Below are positions 454-8,807 of a stretch of 8,807 nt of DNA, piece after piece. The notes beneath the pieces are model-generated. The model was given only the letters and a program-made list of their open reading frames with translations. It did not search any database and was not told where the DNA came from. The position numbers were made by a program, and so were the translations under genes. Every line of letters begins with the position of its first letter. The stretch's first letter is position 1. The stretch lies in assembly GCA_021802115.1 (NCBI GenBank), contig JAKABA010000166.1, forward strand, positions 1 to 8,807. The letters run 5' to 3'. Source of the DNA: a bacterium (GTDB lineage Bacteria > Chloroflexota > Dormibacteria > UBA8260 > Bog-877).

Positions 454-1146
454 GTGTCTGCGCGGCCGCCGGATCCCCGGCGTCCCCCGCTGCAGGTGTA
501 CGGCCTCTGGTTCGCCCGGCGCTCGGCAGAGTCGTTCTTGGTCTCGGATCAGGAGCGGGAGACGGCCGCGGCGCAACTGGTCGAGCAGCATGCAGCGGGC
601 CGGCTGACGCTGGATGAGCTGCGGGAGCGGACCGAGATCGTCTACGGCGCCCGGACCCGGGGCGAGCTCAGCGCCGCGCTGGCTGACCTCCCTGGAAGTG
701 CCGGACCGCCCGGCAACCCCTGGGAGGCACTGGTCCAGCTGCGCAGCCGCAATCCCTTCCCCGGCTATGGCTACGCTCGATTCTGGGCCCGGGCCGCCGG
801 GCTCTGGGTGGACTTGATCCTTATCGCCGGACTGTTCTTGGGCCTCGGGCCGGTGGCTGGGGCAGCCCATCTGGCCGCCCTCACCCTGCTGGTCCCACCG
901 GCCTACTTCACCTCCTTCTGGACGGCCCTGGAGCGGACCCCCGGGATGTGGCTGGTCGGAGCCAAGGTGGTGCGTGCGGAGGACGGCGGGCGTTTGGGCC
1001 TCCGGCGGAGCTTCGTCCGCAGTTGTGGGTACCTACTCGACCTCGCGTCGGGCCTGGTTGGCTTCGGCTGGGCGGCCCTGGATCTCCGGCGCCAGGGCTG
1101 GCACGACAAGCTCGCCGGCAGCCTGGTGGTGCGCCGCCTGCGCTGA
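454..1146 (+). CDS. DUF1707 (SHOCT-like) + RDD family membrane protein
   Basis: This is a two-domain protein of unknown function. With a start at the GTG at 454, two bases after the preceding stop, it has 230 residues. Residues about 29-80 (LVSDQERETAAAQLVEQ... through LSAALADLP) match the DUF1707 pattern: a charged start, then the GRLTLDELRERTE and ARTRGEL blocks. Residues about 100-228 form an RDD domain, with R-A-A-G-L-W-V-D at the first membrane helix, a second helix (LAALTLLVPPAYFTSFW), the R-T-P-G-M-W-L-V-G-A-K-V-V block, and a C-terminal G-W-H-D-K-L-A-G-S-L-V-V-R. RDD proteins are integral membrane proteins, some linked to ion exchange, but no substrate is implied here. The start is uncertain. 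TTG 412 would overlap the previous gene, GTG 496 is internal, and TTG 538 would begin exactly at the DUF1707 domain. No convincing ribosome binding site separates these. The last 114 bp overlap the convergent S-component gene. Confidence 0.85.
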   Translation: MSARPPDPRRPPLQVYGLWFARRSAESFLVSDQERETAAAQLVEQHAAGRLTLDELRERTEIVYGARTRGELSAALADLPGSAGPPGNPWEALVQLRSRNPFPGYGYARFWARAAGLWVDLILIAGLFLGLGPVAGAAHLAALTLLVPPAYFTSFWTALERTPGMWLVGAKVVRAEDGGRLGLRRSFVRSCGYLLDLASGLVGFGWAALDLRRQGWHDKLAGSLVVRRLR

Positions 1147-1899
1147 GAGGGGAGCCGCCTCGGGTAGCGGCCACGACAGCTGCAGTCGCTGACCCACCCG
1201 GTGCAGTCCCACCAGGATCGGCAGCCCCAGGAGCAGCGCCATCAGCGCGTTGCCGACCGCCCGAAAGGAATCGTAACCCAAGGATGTCAGCAGGTAGTAG
1301 CCGGCGAACCGGTGGAGGGCCACCAGCGGCGGCAGATGGGGGGTCCACCCCAGCTGCCCGGACCCTGCATAGAAGGTCCAGTTCCAGACATCCATCACCG
1401 CCCCGAACCCGAATCCGGTCACGATGCCGACCCCTGCCAGCAAGGCGACATCGAGCCGGGTGGGGCGCCCACTGCGGCGCCAGCTGCCGGCGATGCCGGC
1501 GAGCATTCCCACCCAGCCGACCGCGAAGAGCTGGTACGGGACCCAGGGCCCCAGCCCCCCGGTGACCAGCGCCGAGGTCAGCAGTGAGCCCGCACCAACT
1601 AAGAATCCGAACTCCGGGCCCAGCGCGTAGCCACCGCACAGGACCAGCAGGAAGATCGGGCTGAAGCCCGCGATCCCGGTGACCAGGGCCGCTCGCAGAG
1701 CGGCGTCGGCGGCGCTGAGGGCGGCCAGCAGCGCGAACGCGCGGGTGCTCATCCTGCGAGTCCCGACCTCGAAGGCGAGGAGCCCGAGGAGGGTGCCCAG
1801 CCCGATCGCCAAGGCGGGGGTGCTGGCCGGCAGTCCCAAGCCCGAGAACGGCCAGAGAAAGAGGCCGATCCCGAGCAGGCTGATGACGATGAGGATCAC
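1033..1899 (-). CDS. ECF transporter S component (substrate-binding membrane subunit), probably corrinoid-specific
   Basis: This is the 288-residue hydrophobic substrate-capture subunit of an energy-coupling-factor importer. About six membrane segments span residues 1-235. The stretch at 96-136 (E-F-G-F-L-V-G-A, then G-G-L-G-P-W-V-P-Y-Q-L-F-A-V-G-W-V-G-M-L-A-G) is typical of ECF S components, and a second aromatic-rich patch (MDVWNWTFYAG, 169-179) may line the binding pocket. The GTG start at 1899 overlaps the stop of the ATPase gene by 4 nt (GTGA), so translation is probably coupled. As last gene of a cobalamin-riboswitch operon that also encodes a transcobalamin-like lipoprotein, its likely substrate is cobalamin or a precursor such as cobinamide. 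This specificity is inferred from context, by analogy with CbrT. Residues about 240-288 form a non-membrane tail, and the last 37 codons are antisense to the RDD gene. No terminator is visible after the TAG stop. Confidence 0.85.
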   Translation of the reverse strand: MILIVISLLGIGLFLWPFSGLGLPASTPALAIGLGTLLGLLAFEVGTRRMSTRAFALLAALSAADAALRAALVTGIAGFSPIFLLVLCGGYALGPEFGFLVGAGSLLTSALVTGGLGPWVPYQLFAVGWVGMLAGIAGSWRRSGRPTRLDVALLAGVGIVTGFGFGAVMDVWNWTFYAGSGQLGWTPHLPPLVALHRFAGYYLLTSLGYDSFRAVGNALMALLLGLPILVGLHRVGQRLQLSWPLPEAAPLSAQAAHHQAAGELVVPALAPEIQGRPAEANQARREVE

Positions 1900-3233
1900 G
1901 CCGGGGCAGCCGTCATCCGGGTGAGACCGCTAGATTCCGCGACCCAGGTGGAGTCACCGACATGTTCAGCGAAGTCACGGTCGCTGGTCGCCACCAGCAC
2001 CGCCGCCCCCGACTCCGCCAACGCGTCGATGGCGGAGATCAGCATCTCGCGAGCGGGCTGGTCAGCCCCCCGGGTGGGCTCGTCCAGGAAGACGCTGACG
2101 GGCGAACCGATCAGCACCGCAGCGAGGGCCACCCGCTGCCTTTGTCCGGTGCTGAGGTCGCGCGGGTCGCGATCGGCCAGCTCCGAGATCGCGAACTGTC
2201 GCAGGATCGGGTCGACCTCCAGGGGCAGCTTCAGCCATCTGGCGGTCTGCTCCACCTCCTTGCGCACGGTCGCCTGGTGCAGGAGGGAGCCGGGCTCCTG
2301 GGGCAGGTAGGCGGCCCGACCGGGGCTCCGCTCCACCATCCCGGACAGGGGCGGAAGCAGCCCCGCCACCGTCCGCAAGAGGGTTGTCTTGCCGGCGCCG
2401 TTGGCGCCGGTCACGGCGACCACCTCCCCGCGCCGGCAGCTGAGGTTGAGATTCTGCAGCAGCGGGAACCCATGGCCGATCGCCAGATCGTCAGCTGCCC
2501 AGGCGACATCGCCCCCGCGGGCCGTCCGCGCACGGCGAGTGGGCCAGGTGACATCGAGACGGGCCGGCAGTAACCGGCCGCCGACCATGGCCAGCTCCTG
2601 GGTGGCGATCGCCGGGACGCGGTCCGGCCGGTGCTCGGCGACCACCACGCTGACGCCCTCCCTGACCAGGGATGTGAGGCACCGTCCCAGCAGGTCGGCG
2701 CCGGCGGGATCCAGCTGGGAGGTGGGCTCGTCCAGCACCAGCAGCTCCGGGGCCATCGCCAGCGCCCCTGCCAGGGCCACCCTCTGCAGCTCCCCGCCTG
2801 AGATCGCGTCCAGGCGGCGGCCGGCCAGGTGGGAGATCCCCAGGGAGTCCATCGCCGCCTCCGCGCGCCGCCGCACCACAGCCCGCCCGAGGCCCAGGTT
2901 GGCCGGACCGAATGCCACCTCCTGCTCCACCACCGGCATCACCATCTGGCGCTCGGGCTCCTGGAACACCATGGCGACGTGCCGGGCGAGCTGGCGCGGG
3001 GTGATGTGGCGCAGGCTCTGGCCCAGCACCTGGACCTCGCCGCGCGCCCGGCCCCCATGAAAGTGGGGAACCAGGGCATCCAGGCAGCGCAGCAGAGTCG
3101 ACTTGCCGCCACCGGACTCCCCGGTAAGCAGCACCAGGCCCGGTTGGAGCGCCGCTTCCAGCTCCGCCAGGGCAGGTTGGTTCGCGCCTGGATACCAGTA
3201 ACTGAAGTCGTGGAAGCGCGCGATTGCGCTCAT
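1896..3233 (-). CDS. Fused double ECF ATPase (EcfA-EcfA')
   Basis: This 445-residue protein contains both ATPase domains of an ECF importer in one chain. NBD1 has Walker A GESGGGKST (38-46), Q-loop Q91 in FQEPERQ, signature SGGELQR (145-151), Walker B LLVLDEP (164-170, catalytic E169) and switch H201. NBD2 has Walker A GANGAGKTT (276-284), Q312, signature LSTGQRQR (360-367) and Walker B ending in LDEPT (383-387, E385), but its switch position reads T-S-D (S417) where T-H-D is expected. The FQxPxxQ form of the first Q-loop is characteristic of ECF ATPases. The ATG at 3233 is chosen because it overlaps the ecfT stop as ATGA and begins right at the domain. The frame stays open upstream to 3413, but that stretch is antisense-free coding sequence of ecfT in another frame. 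The protein acts at the cytoplasmic face with EcfT and the S component. Confidence 0.93.
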   Translation of the reverse strand: MSAIARFHDFSYWYPGANQPALAELEAALQPGLVLLTGESGGGKSTLLRCLDALVPHFHGGRARGEVQVLGQSLRHITPRQLARHVAMVFQEPERQMVMPVVEQEVAFGPANLGLGRAVVRRRAEAAMDSLGISHLAGRRLDAISGGELQRVALAGALAMAPELLVLDEPTSQLDPAGADLLGRCLTSLVREGVSVVVAEHRPDRVPAIATQELAMVGGRLLPARLDVTWPTRRARTARGGDVAWAADDLAIGHGFPLLQNLNLSCRRGEVVAVTGANGAGKTTLLRTVAGLLPPLSGMVERSPGRAAYLPQEPGSLLHQATVRKEVEQTARWLKLPLEVDPILRQFAISELADRDPRDLSTGQRQRVALAAVLIGSPVSVFLDEPTRGADQPAREMLISAIDALAESGAAVLVATSDRDFAEHVGDSTWVAESSGLTRMTAAPA

Positions 3234-4048
3234 GTCAGCGCCCCCGGAGCCGCCAGCAGGGCGCAGGCCAGGGTGGGCATCCAGGTCAGCCCTGGCACGA
3301 CCAGGCTCGGGTAGGGTTGCCAGTTCGAGACGCCGCCACTGAGCAGCCCGATGACGAACAGGACCATGGCTGCTGTGGAGGTTGCGCCAACCATCACGCT
3401 GAGCCGGTTCCACTTAACCGGGAACGCGTTGGTCCGGGCACCCGTACCGAAGCCCCTGGCCTCCATCGCCTCCGCAAGCAGCACCGAACCCTCGATCGCG
3501 GTCAGCACCGACGGGACCGCGACCGCAGTCACGGAGCGCAGCCCGTGAGGACGCCAGCCCCGCATGGTCTGGGCTTCGCGCACGGCCAGGAAGCTGGTGC
3601 GCAGCCGTGGCAGCAGGCTGGTGGTAGCGCCCAGGGCGGCGCCCGTGCGGTGGAGCGCGCGGGGTAAGGCGTCGATCAGCTGCTGGGGCTCCACCACCAG
3701 CCCCAGGGTGGAGGCCGCCAGCAGGCAGGCCCCCAGCCCCAACGCGATGTCGCCTCCGTACACCGCACCCTCGATCGTGAGCTGTCCGCCCAAGGCCGGC
3801 AGCCACCCGGGCAGGGTCACCAGCACGTCCTGGCCGGTGTGGCTGAGCAAGAGGTTGAAGACCACCGCCAGGAGGCAGACCACCCCGACCCAACGGATCA
3901 CCGGCAACAGGCTCGTTCCCGGGCGGCGATGGCGGGCCAGAACCGCTGCCGCCGCCGCCAGAGTGAGGACCCGATAGATCGGGTCCTCACTCCCCAGGGA
4001 GAGCAGCAGGACCGCGCCGACCCACAGCAGCAGGGCCCGCGCGTTCAT
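3230..4048 (-). CDS. ecfT: ECF transporter transmembrane coupling subunit (EcfT)
   Basis: This 272-residue membrane protein couples the ATPases to the S component. It has hydrophobic segments near residues 5-20, 28-38, 48-68, 98-118, 215-238 and 247-268. Between them lies the cytoplasmic coupling-helix region (about 119-200). EcfT proteins carry two short Ala-Arg-Gly motifs here that dock on the ATPases. The second is intact (E-A-R-G-F, ARG at 197-199), while the first reads M-R-G (162-164), a mild deviation. The ATG at 4048 lies 7 nt after the stop of the lipoprotein gene, and the stop overlaps the ATPase start by 4 nt. A perfect 15-bp inverted repeat lies within codons 19-30 and is described separately. 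The family assignment rests on the topology, the MRG/ARG pair and the gene order T-AA'-S. I see no internal promoter. Confidence 0.9.
   Translation of the reverse strand: MNARALLLWVGAVLLLSLGSEDPIYRVLTLAAAAAVLARHRRPGTSLLPVIRWVGVVCLLAVVFNLLLSHTGQDVLVTLPGWLPALGGQLTIEGAVYGGDIALGLGACLLAASTLGLVVEPQQLIDALPRALHRTGAALGATTSLLPRLRTSFLAVREAQTMRGWRPHGLRSVTAVAVPSVLTAIEGSVLLAEAMEARGFGTGARTNAFPVKWNRLSVMVGATSTAAMVLFVIGLLSGGVSNWQPYPSLVVPGLTWMPTLACALLAAPGALT
3961..3992. repeat. Perfect 15-bp inverted repeat inside ecfT
   Basis: GAGTGAGGACCCGAT (3961-3975) is followed by two bases (AG) and then its exact reverse complement (3978-3992). On the ecfT transcript this would fold into a very stable hairpin about 56 nt after the start codon, within codons 19-30 (residues GSEDPIYRVLTL). 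No T-run follows it, so it does not look like an intrinsic terminator. A role in RNA stability, translation pausing or protein binding is possible but unproven. Confidence 0.9.
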
Positions 4049-4055
4049 GACCTTG

Positions 4056-4535
4056 TCAGCTATTCAAGGGTGGCTTGGGCGGAGCCCCCGGGGTGCCGCT
4101 GCCGAAGTGCCAGCCCAAGGCGTCCCCGTTGCGCAGCTTGATGTCGGTGACCCCGACCTGAGCCACCTTCCAGGGGCCCTTCCCAGTCCAGACGAAGAGG
4201 GCCCAGTAGGGCTTGCCGGAGGCGAAGCAGCTGCTGTACGAGCTGGGCTCGTGGTCGATCTGGCACACCGCGTTGCCGAAACTGAAGTGCTGCTCGGCGT
4301 ACTCGATCCCGCTTCGCTTCATGGCGGTCTGGGCCGGGATCTCGGGACCCTTGAAGTTGACGCAGCTCTCCACGACCTTCTTGCTGGCCAGTTCAACCAC
4401 GACCTCGACCCGGTTGCCGCTCCCGCACTGGGATCGGGGCCCGGTCGTGGCCGCCGACGTGGCGCCGCAACCCGCCAACAGCACCGCCGCGAACATCGGG
4501 GCCAGTATCGCGCTGGCCACTTGAGACGACCTCAT
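4056..4535 (-). CDS. Lipoprotein with transcobalamin C-terminal-like (DUF4430-like) domain
   Basis: This 159-residue surface lipoprotein is the first gene of the riboswitch operon. The signal peptide (MRSSQVASAILAPMFAAV) ends in the lipobox L-L-A-G-C with lipidated Cys23. The mature part has the pattern of the small beta-grasp-like domain at the C-terminus of transcobalamin and intrinsic factor: an initial strand (RVEVVVELASKKVV), a segment with A-Q-T-A-M (69-72) in the place of the usual T-x-x-x-A helix, and then Y-W-A-L-F-V, G-P-W-K-V and N-G-D-A-L-G-W-H-F-G (110-145). Four further cysteines (37, 58, 91, 103) could form two disulfides. The ATG at 4535 is well supported by AGGAGG eight bases upstream. 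The frame stays open to 4766, but that extension would run through the riboswitch. The likely role is capture of cobalamin or a corrinoid outside the membrane for the ECF importer encoded next, 7 nt downstream. This is inference, and the fold call comes from motif resemblance. Confidence 0.82.
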   Translation of the reverse strand: MRSSQVASAILAPMFAAVLLAGCGATSAATTGPRSQCGSGNRVEVVVELASKKVVESCVNFKGPEIPAQTAMKRSGIEYAEQHFSFGNAVCQIDHEPSSYSSCFASGKPYWALFVWTGKGPWKVAQVGVTDIKLRNGDALGWHFGSGTPGAPPKPPLNS

Positions 4536-4543
4536 CGTCTCCA

Positions 4544-4549
4544 CCTCCT
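4544..4549 (-). promoter_or_regulatory. Ribosome binding site of the lipoprotein gene
   Basis: The minus strand reads AGGAGG, a perfect anti-SD match, with 8 nt before the ATG at 4535. It fixes this start against the longer open frame to 4766 and is the natural target if the riboswitch controls translation. Confidence 0.85.
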
Positions 4550-4561
4550 GGCGGCTGCTCT

Positions 4562-4597
4562 GGCCCCACGCTGAAAATGGGCCCGCCGCCTGGGGCC
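4562..4597 (-). promoter_or_regulatory. Putative expression platform of the cobalamin riboswitch
   Basis: Between the aptamer and the lipoprotein RBS, the minus-strand RNA starts with GGCCCCA (4597-4591). This can pair with GGGCC (4584-4580), giving a short hairpin followed by CATTTTC. It can instead pair over 7 bp with TGGGGCC (4568-4562), just upstream of the RBS. The two pairings exclude each other, as expected for a switching element. Which state is ON, and whether control is by termination or RBS access, cannot be decided by eye. Confidence 0.45.
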
Positions 4598-4631
4598 TTC
4601 CTTCCCGTTGCGCGCGGGGGATGCTCGGCAC

Positions 4632-4790
4632 CCGCTCGGGCCGGTCTCCTGGCTCGCGGATCGCTGCCTCATCGCCGCCTTCCCAGGATCGTTCCCGGTG
4701 GCACTCTGGCAGAGGCTCCCCGCTCACAGTTGCGCGACAGCTCCGGATTTGGGCACGTCCCCGCACCGGATTCCCATTCGCCCGAGGGGC
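4632..4790 (-). ncRNA. Cobalamin (B12) riboswitch aptamer
   Basis: This is a cis-acting RNA that binds adenosylcobalamin or another cobalamin and normally lowers expression of the downstream operon when the vitamin is plentiful. The minus strand shows the conserved segments in order: GGGAATCCGGTG (4775-4764), AAATCCGG followed by GCAACTGT (4733-4726), GAGCGGGGAGC, TGGGAAGGC (4685-4677), CGATGAGG, and the B12 box GAGCCAGGAGACCGGCC (4655-4639). The ends are closed by a perfect 7-bp helix, CTCGGGC (4786-4780) with GCCCGAG (4641-4635). It sits in the 354-bp gap between the MFS gene and the lipoprotein gene and points into the ECF operon, which makes it strong evidence for a corrinoid-linked function. 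The exact aptamer boundaries and the cobalamin subclass are uncertain. Confidence 0.95.
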
Positions 4791-4808
4791 TATTCGGTTG
4801 TGGAGGGA

Positions 4809-4814
4809 ATCTTA
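4809..4814 (-). promoter_or_regulatory. Possible -10 element for the riboswitch operon
   Basis: The minus strand reads TAAGAT about 18 nt before the aptamer starts, the right place for a promoter of this leader. No good -35 box is visible at the usual distance, so the call is weak. A 6-bp inverted repeat (GGTCCC/GGGACC, 4828-4845) lies just upstream and could be a weak end signal for the MFS transcript or a binding site. Confidence 0.25.
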
Positions 4815-4889
4815 GAGCAACCAACCCGGTCCCGGGGCAGGGACCTGTGCACCACCCGGGCCAAAGGGTCGATGCGAACGCCGCGAGGG

Positions 4890-6179
4890 TCAGGCGGTCC
4901 GCGGCGGCGGCAGGTTCACTGAGTTCGGCAGGTGGTGCCCGAGCTTGCCCGCCCCGACTGCCAGGCCCAGGAAGACGGTGGCCCACAACACCCACATCCC
5001 CGGCCGCAGCTGCGACCCGACCACCAGCCCGCCAACCGCGGGGCCGATGATGAGACCCACCGACCAGGAGAGGTTGAAGGTTGCCATGTAACGTCCTCTG
5101 GCCGCCGGTCTTGCCATGTCGGCGACCAGAGGGCCGATGGTGGAGCTGAGGAGACACTCCGCCGCCCCGAACGCGACCGCAAACAGCCCCAACAGGGCGG
5201 CCGCGGCCAGGCCCCGCTCCCAGCTGGCGACCTCACCGATGAGCCAGGCGCTGGCCCAGGCGGCGGCCGCCAGCATCAGGGTCCTGGTTCGGGGCAGTCC
5301 CCGTACGAAGCGGGCGATGGGCAGCTGGGCGAGCACTATGAAGCCCGTGTTCGCGGCCAGGATGAGGCCGATCGCGGCGGTGGGCACGGCCAGGAAGACG
5401 CGCGCGTAGAGCGGGACTGCGCTGTCGAGTTGGGCGTATGCGCCGACCACGACCACCAAGTTGAAGACCACCACCACCATGAACCGGAGGTCGCGCAGCA
5501 CCTCGAGGTAGCCGCTGCGGCGACCGGCGGCCGAGGCTGCCCTCCCCGACGGCACCAGGGCCACGACCAAGAGCAAAAACGCGACAAATGTGGCCGCATC
5601 GATGAGGTAGATCGTGGTGAAGGTCCCGGGCCGGACGGTGGAGACAATCAGGCCGCCGCTGATCGCGCCGATCCCGATGCCGAGATTGTTGGCGGCGTAC
5701 TGCAGCGACGCCGCCGAGGTCCGCTCCTCCCTGGTCGTGAGCGCGGCCAGCAGCGCGGCGATGGCGGGATAGTAACAACCCGCTCCGATCCCGATGAGCA
5801 GCATCGCCCCCGCCGCCTCGGGAAGGTTGACCACGTAGCCGAGGTAGGCAAACCCCATGGTCTGGGCCGAGAGCCCGGCCAGGATCAGCGCCTTGGGGCT
5901 CGCCCGGTCGACCAGTGAGCCACCGACCAGCGCCGTCAGCAGCGAGGCGAGTGCCGACAGAGAAAGGATGGCTCCGACGATTGGGATCGGCAGCCCCCGG
6001 ACCACGTGCAGGTAGATGGATCCGTACGGCAGGACGAATCCGTTACCGAGGGCGGAGATGGCCCCACCGGCGACCACAATCCACACTCGCAAAGGCAGGG
6101 CCGGGCGCAGGCTGCGCAGGTAGCCGATCGCGAGGTGGCCCGGCTGGGGGTGCGTCCCGGTGCTCCTTGGCCCCGGCAC
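4890..6179 (-). CDS. MFS transporter (DHA1-like multidrug exporter type)
   Basis: This 429-residue protein has about 12 predicted membrane helices in two halves and is probably a proton-driven exporter in the cytoplasmic membrane. Between helices 2 and 3 it carries MFS motif A (GGSLVDRASPKALIL, residues 86-100: G-x-L-x-D-R-x-x-x-K). A well-kept block in the second half (RGRYMATFNLSWSVGLIIGPAVGG) resembles those of drug:H+ antiporters of the MdtH/YttB type. The GTG start at 6179 is supported by AGGAG at 6188-6192, 8 nt upstream. The first 30 residues are polar and probably cytoplasmic. The gene lies on the same strand as, and upstream of, the riboswitch operon, but the riboswitch is downstream of it and so does not control it. 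The substrate is unknown; export of a drug-like compound is the default family expectation. Confidence 0.9.
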   Translation of the reverse strand: MPGPRSTGTHPQPGHLAIGYLRSLRPALPLRVWIVVAGGAISALGNGFVLPYGSIYLHVVRGLPIPIVGAILSLSALASLLTALVGGSLVDRASPKALILAGLSAQTMGFAYLGYVVNLPEAAGAMLLIGIGAGCYYPAIAALLAALTTREERTSAASLQYAANNLGIGIGAISGGLIVSTVRPGTFTTIYLIDAATFVAFLLLVVALVPSGRAASAAGRRSGYLEVLRDLRFMVVVVFNLVVVVGAYAQLDSAVPLYARVFLAVPTAAIGLILAANTGFIVLAQLPIARFVRGLPRTRTLMLAAAAWASAWLIGEVASWERGLAAAALLGLFAVAFGAAECLLSSTIGPLVADMARPAARGRYMATFNLSWSVGLIIGPAVGGLVVGSQLRPGMWVLWATVFLGLAVGAGKLGHHLPNSVNLPPPRTA

Positions 6180-6386: not shown

Positions 6387-6791
6387 TCAGTCACCGAGAC
6401 CGTCGCCAAGGTCAGCGGCGGCCGCCGCATGGACGTGAAACAGCAGCCGGTGCATCTGCTTGGTCAGCTGCAGCCGCTCCTCCTCCAGGCGGCGGCGGCG
6501 CCGACTCTGATGGATCAGATGGAGGGTGCCGCCGGCGGCGATGCAGGCGCCGATGTCACTGGTGACATTGGTGTAGTTGCCCCCGATCAGCTCCGCCTTG
6601 GCGCTGACCACTATCCCCAGGAAGGGGAGCACCACCAGGTAGATGCCCAGCCCGAGCAAAAAGAAGATGTGCACCTTGCTGGATAGGACCCGGGGGACGT
6701 ACCCGAGCGCCCGATCGATCCGGGATTGGGGCACGGCCAGATTGGCGAGCGAGTCGAAGTCAGTGGGCGGTGAGGCGGGCGCATCTGGCAC
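6387..6791 (-). CDS. Hypothetical small membrane protein with C-terminal charged helix
   Basis: This 134-residue protein is not assigned to a family. It has a polar N-terminus (1-38), a first membrane helix (about 40-63, HIFFLLGLGIYLVVLPFLGI), a short loop with G-G-N-Y-T-N-V-T-S-D, a second helix (about 77-94, DIGACIAAGGTLHLI), and a strongly basic then mixed-charge helix (95-118, five consecutive arginines then LEEERLQLTKQMHRLL) that could form a coiled coil. The two-helix plus amphipathic-helix layout is loosely like the low-affinity iron permease (Fet4-type) family, but the resemblance is too weak to name it. The GTG start is supported by AAGGAG at 6798-6803, 6 nt upstream. It lies 135 bp downstream of the phosphofructokinase gene on the same strand. 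Its reality rests on the RBS and the clean membrane pattern. Confidence 0.7.
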   Translation of the reverse strand: MPDAPASPPTDFDSLANLAVPQSRIDRALGYVPRVLSSKVHIFFLLGLGIYLVVLPFLGIVVSAKAELIGGNYTNVTSDIGACIAAGGTLHLIHQSRRRRRLEEERLQLTKQMHRLLFHVHAAAAADLGDGLGD

Positions 6792-6926: not shown

Positions 6927-7961
6927 TCAGTAGAAGACCTGGGCCAGCGTGTAGAGGTCCTCGGGCACCCGGCGCTGCCCTGCCGCCACCTCCGCCAGCT
7001 GGGCGATGGCGACTCCGTCCCCCTGCTTCACCGGGATGCGTCCGAACTCTCCAGCGACGGCCAGATCGTAGCCTGCCGCCCCCACCCTGGTTGCCCAGAT
7101 GCGGTCGTAGGCGGTGGGCGCCCCACCCCTTTGCGTGTACCCCAACACGGTGACTCGGGTTTCGAAGCCGGTCTCGGCCTCGATCGCCTCCGCAAGTTGC
7201 GGCCCGACTCCGCGACGGCTCAGCAGGAGGTGCCCAAACGCATCGCGGGGCCCGCTCTCGGCTGTCGCCTGGGTCAGCCCGGCCACGGTGGCGCCCTCCG
7301 CCACCACGACGATGCTGAAGTCGCGGCCGCGCTCGCGGCGGGCCCGAAGGTGGGTGGTGATGTCCTGGAGTCCGACCGGGAACTCGGGGATCACGATCAT
7401 GTCGGCGCCTCCCGCGAGCCCGCCCATCACCGCCACCCACCCGGTGTCCCTTCCCATCACCTCCACCACCATCACCCGGTGGTGGGCGGCCGCGGTGGTG
7501 TGCAGCCGGTCCAGCGCCTCGGTGACGATGGCGACCGCGCTGTCGAAGCCGATGCAGTACTCCGTGACCTGCAGGTCGTTGTCCATGGTCTTCGGAACCC
7601 CCACGACGGGGAGCCCCTGGTCCGCGAGAGCGCGCGCCACCGAGAGGGTGTCGTCGCCGCCGATGGCGATGAGGGCCCCGAGCCCGGCGCTCTCAAAGTG
7701 TGTGATGACGGCTTCCATCGCCTGCTTGTCCGCGAGCGGGTTCACTCGGGAGGTGCCCAGGATCGTCCCCCCGACCGAGAGGATCCCTGAGACCTGGTGG
7801 GGGTCGATGGGACTCAGCCCCTGGTCCTGAACCAGCCCGGCCCACCCGTTGTGCACGCCCACCACCTCGTGGCCGTCGGCCTGTGCCTTGCGGGCGACGG
7901 CTCGAATTGCCGCGTTCAACCCGGGCGCGTCACCCCCACCCGTCAGCACCCCAAGCCTCAT
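6927..7961 (-). CDS. 6-phosphofructokinase, group III, predicted pyrophosphate-dependent
   Basis: This 344-residue cytoplasmic glycolytic enzyme phosphorylates fructose 6-phosphate to fructose 1,6-bisphosphate. The N-terminus (RLGVLTGGGDAPGLNAAIR) carries the phosphoryl-donor loop. Further family motifs are GGDDT (101-105), PKTMDND (123-129, with the catalytic base Asp), MGRDTGW (169-175) and GYTQRGG (274-280). Two positions point to the donor: Asp104, where ATP enzymes have Gly (GGDGS), and Lys124, where E. coli-type ATP enzymes have Gly. The D/K pair is the established mark of pyrophosphate-dependent enzymes such as that of Amycolatopsis, which run reversibly. Length and motifs are complete. 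The ATG at 7961 is backed by AGGAGG 5 nt upstream. The gene is divergent from the cupredoxin and is followed on its strand by the small membrane protein. ATP use is not excluded without assay. Confidence 0.95.
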   Translation of the reverse strand: MRLGVLTGGGDAPGLNAAIRAVARKAQADGHEVVGVHNGWAGLVQDQGLSPIDPHQVSGILSVGGTILGTSRVNPLADKQAMEAVITHFESAGLGALIAIGGDDTLSVARALADQGLPVVGVPKTMDNDLQVTEYCIGFDSAVAIVTEALDRLHTTAAAHHRVMVVEVMGRDTGWVAVMGGLAGGADMIVIPEFPVGLQDITTHLRARRERGRDFSIVVVAEGATVAGLTQATAESGPRDAFGHLLLSRRGVGPQLAEAIEAETGFETRVTVLGYTQRGGAPTAYDRIWATRVGAAGYDLAVAGEFGRIPVKQGDGVAIAQLAEVAAGQRRVPEDLYTLAQVFY

Positions 7962-8158: not shown

Positions 8159-8807
8159 ATGGCAGTCAGAACCTCAGCGGCGACTTCGGACCAGGAACGT
8201 GAACCCGGGATGTGGGTGATGGGGGCTGCCATCGTGGCGGTCCTCATGGCAGCCGTGGTCCTGATCGGCGGGTACGCCTCGGGGTGGGGGGGACACCTGA
8301 AGATCTCGCAGGCGGCGGTGCCGCTGGCGGCGTCCAGCGGGACGAGTCAGGCGACGCTCAACCTGTCGATCGTTACCGGGAAGATGATGGGATCTGGCGC
8401 GCTCGGGCCGGCCTACGTTCCCAGCAACTTCACCGTGCCTGCGGACTCCACGGTCAAGGTGACGGTCACCGACTTCGACACCGCGACCCCGCTCACTGGC
8501 CCACTGGTGAAGTACTCCAAGGTGACCGGCACCGTGGGGGGCACGATGCAGGTGCAGCCGATCAATCCCCAGGCCCCCAACAGCTTCGTGGGCAAAGCCC
8601 ACACCATGAGCTACCTAGCGCCAACTCTGGTCGCCCACACCCTGACGATTCCGGCGCTGGGGATCAACGTTCCCATGGCCGGACAGTCCCGGATCACCTT
8701 CACCATCAAGACCGGCAAGCCCGGCACCTACGAGTGGCAGTGCATGGACCCGTGCGGGAACGGGGCCAATGGCATGGGTGCCCCGATGGGGATGGTCGGT
8801 TACATGG
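8159..8807 (+). CDS. Membrane-anchored cupredoxin-like protein, CuA/sulfocyanin-related (3' end outside window)
   Basis: The first 216 codons of a predicted extracytoplasmic copper protein are visible; the frame is open to the window end. A short cytoplasmic N-terminus is followed by one membrane helix (residues 18-39) and then a beta-rich domain. Residues 159-199 follow the cytochrome c oxidase subunit II CuA pattern: A-H160-T-L-T-I-P-A-L-G-I-N-V-P, a TFxIxTGKPGTYEW strand, and the loop C195-M-D-P-C199-G. In CuA the loop is CxxxCxxxHxxM. Here the spacing gives Ala203 at the His position, with Met206 at the Met position and Met210 shortly after. The copper site may therefore be altered or absent. 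Proteins of this kind usually act as membrane-bound electron carriers near terminal oxidases, which is a family expectation only. The ATG is chosen because AGAGGA lies 8 nt upstream (8145-8150); Met18 at the helix edge is a less likely start. Confidence 0.82.
   Translation, partial: MAVRTSAATSDQEREPGMWVMGAAIVAVLMAAVVLIGGYASGWGGHLKISQAAVPLAASSGTSQATLNLSIVTGKMMGSGALGPAYVPSNFTVPADSTVKVTVTDFDTATPLTGPLVKYSKVTGTVGGTMQVQPINPQAPNSFVGKAHTMSYLAPTLVAHTLTIPALGINVPMAGQSRITFTIKTGKPGTYEWQCMDPCGNGANGMGAPMGMVGYM

Follow-up and report, generated by a model that had tools for sequence, protein, structure and literature searches.

The question raised by this locus is why an operon for an energy-coupling factor (ECF) importer, placed behind a cobalamin (vitamin B12) riboswitch, should begin with a gene for a lipoprotein, and what this importer carries. 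The locus lies in the Dormibacteria contig JAKABA010000166.1, the whole analysed stretch of which (8807 bases) is called the window herein, and all parts of the operon are on its minus strand. We propose that the operon encodes a dedicated (group I-like) ECF importer for complete cobalamin under the control of the riboswitch, together with an outward-facing lipoprotein that is a stand-alone transcobalamin beta domain, and we consider this reading probable. It is built on the parts of the operon, their conserved order, the predicted fold of the lipoprotein, a modest sequence kinship of the S component and the genome context, all of which were observed in the present study.

First, the operon is headed by a complete riboswitch aptamer. 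The RF00174 match (4622-4800, minus strand; cmscan) reaches 91.5 bits against a gathering score of 31.5 (E 3e-22), covers model positions 1-189 and is not truncated, which confirms the cobalamin riboswitch that a sequence-only reading of this DNA had placed ahead of four genes. These genes encode a lipoprotein of 159 residues with the lipobox cysteine at residue 23 (4056-4535), the CbiQ-like transmembrane coupling subunit EcfT of 272 residues (3230-4048; PF02361, 27.8 bits, cut-off 25), a fused EcfA-EcfA' ATPase of 445 residues (1896-3233; two ABC_tran stretches, E 1.8e-51, and the cbiO model TIGR01166 above its cut-off) and an S component of 288 residues (1033-1899; ECF_trnsprt PF12822, 24.0 bits, below the cut-off of 30.7). 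The identities given to the four genes in that reading were upheld, as was the gene set of the interval 1033-4790; only the upper border fell short, because the aptamer reaches 4800. With its own EcfT, two EcfA domains and an S component in one operon, conserved in relatives, the locus has the composition of a group I ECF transporter. The genes are as tightly packed as had been claimed, with a gap of 7 nucleotides and no overlap between the lipoprotein and EcfT genes, and overlaps of 4 nucleotides at the EcfT/EcfA (ATGA) and EcfA/S (GTGA) junctions. Overlap is confined to the two ECF junctions, and the overlapping stop and start codons suggest translational coupling at most, not the fixed stoichiometry that had been read from them. 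The last 114 nucleotides of the S gene are shared with a convergent plus-strand DUF1707/RDD gene (412-1146), and a similar overlap was observed in relatives such as L001 and L002.

The ribosome-binding site of the lipoprotein gene (AGGAGG, 4549-4544) is within a predicted hairpin (4543-4596, minus strand), a possible, though weak, candidate for the expression platform of the riboswitch. The RNA 4600-4525 (minus strand) folds with -34.3 kcal/mol (z -2.27; 2 of 200 shuffles equally good), whereas the longer piece 4621-4530 gives a z of only 0.10, and the hairpin is notable for the shorter piece alone. No terminator-like site was found in 4500-4900.

Second, the lipoprotein is predicted to adopt the fold of a transcobalamin beta domain (SLBB). 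Mean values of the predicted local distance difference test are high (82-95 by block, residues 41-150), and the 15 best matches in the PDB fold search were either B12 carriers, with the beta domains of transcobalamin, haptocorrin and intrinsic factor at the top, or 3u7z. The beta-grasp core (two strands, a helix and three strands) is present, and a beta-hairpin insert (predicted strands 79-84 and 87-93) directly follows the helix at 68-75, both being defining features of the Transcobalamin-like SLBB clade. The resemblance to the transcobalamin C-domain, the absence of which had been named beforehand as reason to give up the reading, was borne out by the structure prediction and by profile-profile comparison with DUF4430. 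Glycines G107, G128, G137 and G141 are invariant in the family and may include the two characteristic glycines published for the clade. Conservation peaks in strand 3 and the residues leading into it (107-116), where 6 of 10 positions are invariant. Besides the lipobox cysteine, four cysteines (residues 37, 58, 91 and 103) are invariant and perhaps form two disulfides; distant members mostly keep cysteines 58 and 91 and have extra ones, such as CFC after the hairpin.

The lipoprotein family is related to DUF4430 remotely, by profile-profile comparison only (hhalign, using 26 of 30 DUF4430 loci and excluding the 4 cut by contig ends). Pfam and NCBIfam gave no useful match for the window lipoprotein, and its 18-member family drew stray Pfam matches of 1-2 members only (best E 0.067). 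The DUF4430 model (PF14478) matched 0 of 18 members up to E 10, with HMMER filters removing most matches above 0.1, and 0 of 11 genomes at E 0.1. Because 0 of 10 beta-domain proteins from more distant genomes matched DUF4430 in a Pfam scan, a Pfam-level sequence bridge is missing, and the nearest bridge is L054, a DUF4430 protein found by the A1 profile (E 0.0038). Pfam gave no match of the lipoprotein to a Peripla_BP_2 (BtuF-type) domain; the sole match in its PDB sequence profile search, to a nitrite reductase (E 0.084), was confined to the signal peptide and was discarded.

Third, the S component shows a modest sequence kinship to a corrinoid transporter. A profile of 14 S-component sequences, searched against all PDB sequences, placed 6fnp chain A first (E 4.1e-6), with the folate S component 5d0y next (0.034). 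6FNP is ECF-CbrT, described in the available part of its report as a transporter of cobalamin and cobinamide (PMC5997447), and the 182-residue chain 6fnp_A was taken as CbrT from its length and that report. The window S model has an S-component fold, with low confidence at residues 243-288, and no Pfam match to the cobalt-type S component CbiM was found in the window proteins. The corrinoid context assumed in the sequence-only reading is thus supported by the riboswitch, this kinship and the genome content described below.

Fourth, the arrangement is conserved. A contig scan revealed 22 relatives, among which the lipoprotein gene recurs with EcfT, EcfA and S genes under a B12 riboswitch, in this order, down to 37-45% identity, and this recurrence exceeds chance. 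The best of these relatives include Dormibacterota MAGs, and the two organism names found among 18 homologues of the lipoprotein both belong to Candidatus Dormibacteria MAGs. The riboswitch is present in 20 of the 22; the two misses, L017 and L020, have matches starting 569 and 41 bases from the contig end, and an Rfam search of L017 1-700 at low threshold gave nothing. EcfT follows the lipoprotein gene in 21 relatives, EcfA in 20 and S in 17, EcfA being missing in L016, and S in L011, L014 and L016, because the contig ends. More broadly, the lipoprotein domain was found in 45 of 201 genomes of the phylum of G001, and a same-strand riboswitch lies within 6 kb upstream in 38 of these 45 (36 at or above the gathering score, the others being G193 and G201) and within 6 kb downstream in none. 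In the phylum of G009 (called actinobacterial), 51 of 296 genomes were positive for Pfam DUF4430, with a riboswitch within 6 kb upstream in 32 of 51 (27 above the gathering score; G238, G277, G318, G407 and G482 below it) and downstream in one. This survey covered 48 of 48 domain places in the former phylum and 52 of 78 DUF4430 places in the latter, at least one per genome. An apparent EcfA-beta-domain fusion in L049 was rejected, the long frame being an out-of-frame run-on when read. In L021 (7959-8516, plus strand, and 9434-10375, minus strand), a Peripla_BP_2 (BtuF-like) gene starts about 0.9 kb beyond the lipoprotein gene on the opposite strand.

Fifth, the genomes carrying the lipoprotein appear to be users of the vitamin. 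The mutase family PF01642 was present in 15 of 16 lipoprotein-carrying genomes and the PduO-type adenosyltransferase PF01923 in 16 of 16, and both were present in all seven close genomes, in which the lipoproteins are 56-87% identical to that of the window. CbiC was found in 2 of 16 lipoprotein-carrying genomes, CobS in 3 of 16 and the FecCD permease above its cut-off in 1 of 16 (3 of 16 at E 0.001), and each of them in 0 of 7 close genomes. A riboswitch search in five of the seven close genomes revealed exactly one in each, ahead of the lipoprotein-ECF operon. These results are consistent with B12 users in which synthesis and a BtuC-type importer were undetected and one operon is B12-switched. 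Elsewhere in the family, CobS is near the beta-domain gene in L083, L132 and L133, and CobU in L122 and L132; in genome G186, CobS and CobU come after the lipoprotein and S genes, and CobS is near the beta-domain gene in G098, G063 and G129. In L122 (G186; CobU at 3822-4367, plus strand), the S gene directly follows the lipoprotein gene and EcfT and EcfA were undetected in 7.7 kb. In L132 (6798-8448, minus strand), CobS and CobU lie beside the lipoprotein gene and ECF genes were undetected on that 8.9-kb contig.

The toroid half of transcobalamin requires separate consideration. The window operon has no toroid gene, its riboswitch sitting directly before the lipoprotein gene, and a complete transcobalamin is therefore not encoded there. 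In distant genomes, a secreted alpha/alpha-toroid gene is near the beta-domain gene, mostly between it and the riboswitch; the toroid was found in 25 of 29 opened loci and was absent in L122, L129, L132 and L134 (the last cut at the contig end), although these loci were hand-picked, mostly among genomes with a riboswitch 1.1-4 kb upstream, a choice that favours an extra gene. A gene for a secreted toroid near the beta domain was observed in L083-L102, L127, L128, L130, L131, L133 and L135, most with ECF genes in the same piece, and L127 also has toroid and beta domain fused in a single protein. Thus, many distant operons appear to encode both transcobalamin halves plus ECF genes, as a putative split bacterial transcobalamin. 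The S component and an alpha/alpha toroid resembling the alpha domain of transcobalamin share one open frame in 5 of the 23 actinobacterial DUF4430 genomes that were opened (L125:2919-4871, minus, G376; L126:3417-5453, minus, G266; L136:533-2458, minus, G472; L123:2-1840, plus, G429; L124:2-1945, plus, G483), and in all five a B12 riboswitch precedes the DUF4430 gene by 1.2-2.1 kb. The toroid assignment is based on Pfam toroid families, above cut-off in 8 of 10 scanned proteins, with PF01122 (Cobalamin_bind) above cut-off in 1 of 10; PDB sequence searches with the toroid profile or a single toroid did not retrieve transcobalamin but squalene-hopene cyclases and others. In a midpoint-rooted tree of S components, toroid-less operons are placed among toroid-carrying ones, the beta-only state requires 4 changes and the toroid-carrying L098 falls inside. 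L017 and L020, whose upstream side is cut off, should be read as neither beta-only nor toroid-carrying; L017 clusters with L099/L100, which carry the toroid, and a strong toroid match (E 2.6e-50) was found on a different contig of G009, the genome of L020. This nesting suggests toroid loss, without proof of a single event. Two beta-type (DUF4430 or A1-type) domains were observed in one locus in L135 (4001-4474, minus strand), L112, L116, L127 and L128.

On the proposed mechanism, the lipid-anchored beta domain would capture cobalamin with moderate affinity outside the cytoplasmic membrane, and would either deliver it to the S component or hold it over this protein. The loaded S component would topple onto EcfT, EcfA-EcfA' would drive the release of complete cobalamin inward, the PduO-type enzyme would convert the vitamin to its adenosyl form, for use by methylmalonyl-CoA-mutase-type enzymes, and this cofactor may in turn shut the riboswitch, closing a feedback loop. 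Crystals of the isolated human transcobalamin beta domain were obtained with cyanocobalamin and with cobinamide, and affinity fell when the domains were separated, according to the available part of the report (PMC5599065); a beta domain on its own is therefore a plausible binder, though a weaker one.

Several observations weigh against this reading. The toroid, which forms much of the transcobalamin pocket, is missing at the window locus. Its profile gave only weak matches in the seven close genomes (best E 1.3e-8), compared with E 1e-126 or lower in three positive genomes, G161 and G203 among them having supplied sequences to the profile; the weak matches that were read, in two of the seven, look like squalene-hopene cyclases. 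Of the B12-contacting elements, strand 3 is the only one that seems strongly kept, since invariant positions are no more frequent in the hairpin (4 of 15) than in strand 2 (2 of 7) and are few in the connector (3 of 22), so that the others are not clearly above the rest. The match to 6FNP is modest (domain E 4.8e-4, with a high bias of 12.4), and the fold search with the S component ties all substrates; that 6fnp is not in its list carries no weight. In L010, EcfA is not followed by an S gene; in L021, the lipoprotein gene and riboswitch have no ECF genes adjacent; and no riboswitch lies within 6 kb upstream in 7 of the 45 domain-positive and 19 of the 51 DUF4430-positive genomes. The genomes are drafts, and absences in them are soft. 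Finally, ECF-CbrT moves B12 in proteoliposomes and complements Escherichia coli with no lipoprotein (PMC5997447, available part).

The alternatives differ in what they ask of the lipoprotein and of the substrate. In a bolder version of the proposal, the system is a minimal transcobalamin in which the toroid has been lost and the membrane S component has taken its place, cobalamin being sandwiched between lipoprotein and S component; we regard this as rather doubtful, but if true, the cap would be indispensable to the importer, and B12 uptake of the ECF type would rely on a two-sided clamp and not on capture by S alone. It is also unlikely, in our view, that the lipoprotein is only a structural partner (a lid or stabiliser) of an S component that alone selects cobalamin, and not a first-step binder. 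The small N subunits of Cbi/NikMNQO transporters play a comparable role. The missing toroid half and the position of EcfT next to the lipoprotein gene in 21 of 22 relatives fit such a partner, as does the need of ECF-CbrT for an S component and ECF module only (PMC5997447, available part); against it, the lipoprotein keeps the transcobalamin-type hairpin and the highly conserved strand 3, and the domain occurs beside a riboswitch in L021 and beside CobS and CobU in L132, with no ECF genes adjacent in the former or detected on the contig in the latter. That the importer takes the precursor cobinamide, instead of or besides complete cobalamin, is distinctly improbable: ECF-CbrT also takes it (PMC5997447, available part), and CobS and CobU follow the lipoprotein and S genes in G186 and CobS is near the domain in three further genomes, but the 0 of 7 count for CobS in the close draft genomes means that cobinamide would not be completable by the usual route in the lineage of the window. 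Another substrate (cobalt, heme or another vitamin), with the riboswitch merely reporting B12 status and the beta-grasp domain binding that ligand, is very improbable, since the CbiQ family of EcfT being used for cobalt, the various ligands of SLBB domains (PMC1796856, available part) and the tie of S-component folds across substrates are opposed by the lack of a Pfam CbiM match, by 6FNP as the best PDB sequence relative of the S component, by the lipoprotein folds confined to B12 carriers and 3u7z, and, for cobalt, by the 0 of 7 count for CbiC, with which cobalt would not feed corrin synthesis.

Near the operon, an unknown protein of 134 residues (6387-6791, minus strand) is encoded beside a phosphofructokinase (6927-7961, minus strand), and, of the 22 relatives, 9 have the former and 10 the latter in the vicinity of the operon. 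A probable secreted cupredoxin-like protein (8159-8806, plus strand; Cupredoxin_1 and COX2 matches, both below cut-off) is cut by the window end.

The novelty claimed for the locus is limited by earlier work. In 2007, Burroughs et al. reported that genes for transcobalamin-like proteins generally occur together with CbiO-like and CbiQ-like genes, suggested B12 scavenging, and noted that the hosts usually are without key B12 biosynthetic enzymes (PMC1796856, available part). Those proteins share with the present family a secreted beta-grasp domain with hairpin insert, stand-alone or toroid-fused, beside CbiO-like and CbiQ-like genes; however, the prokaryotes named in the available main text are low-GC Gram-positives, planctomycetes and some euryarchaea, the terms "riboswitch" and "Chloroflex" are absent from it, and the window family, present in Dormibacterota and others, is unmatched by Pfam DUF4430. 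The beta domains of human transcobalamin, intrinsic factor and haptocorrin have the same fold, including the hairpin insert, but the window lipoprotein is only 12-19% identical to them in the aligned part, is lipid-anchored, has no toroid in protein or operon and is partnered by an ECF transporter. ECF-CbrT of Lactobacillus delbrueckii (6FNP) is likewise an ECF importer with a profile-related S component; as described in the available part of PMC5997447, it is of group II, with an ECF module common to several S components, whereas the window has its own EcfT, fused EcfA-EcfA' and lipoprotein. A 2023 proteomics table for Lacticaseibacillus rhamnosus lists an "Additional lipoprotein component of putative cobalamin ECF transporter" (PMC9963975, available part), the same role as proposed herein, given as a table name alone, and the DUF4430 protein of that paper has another locus tag, which leaves the identity uncertain. 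BtuF of BtuCDF has the same role, as extracytoplasmic B12 binder for an ABC-type importer, and belongs to a different family. Among open-licence papers, none was found on the system of this lineage or on S-toroid fusions. The present study adds a subfamily that the Pfam model misses, the evidence from riboswitch and S component, the S-toroid fusions, and a form lacking the toroid, for which the genome content favours the import of whole cobalamin.

If the proposal is correct, bacteria possess functional relatives of the animal B12 carriers that supply an ECF importer, a type of transporter in which the S component is usually described as sufficient to catch substrate. The window version, a 159-residue lipoprotein plus transporter, is the smallest one observed and can be compared side by side with the separate-toroid and S-toroid-fused versions, which makes the 2007 prediction directly testable. 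Moreover, it suggests a route of vitamin supply in bacteria that have B12-dependent mutases and in which corrin synthesis and a BtuC-type permease were undetected.

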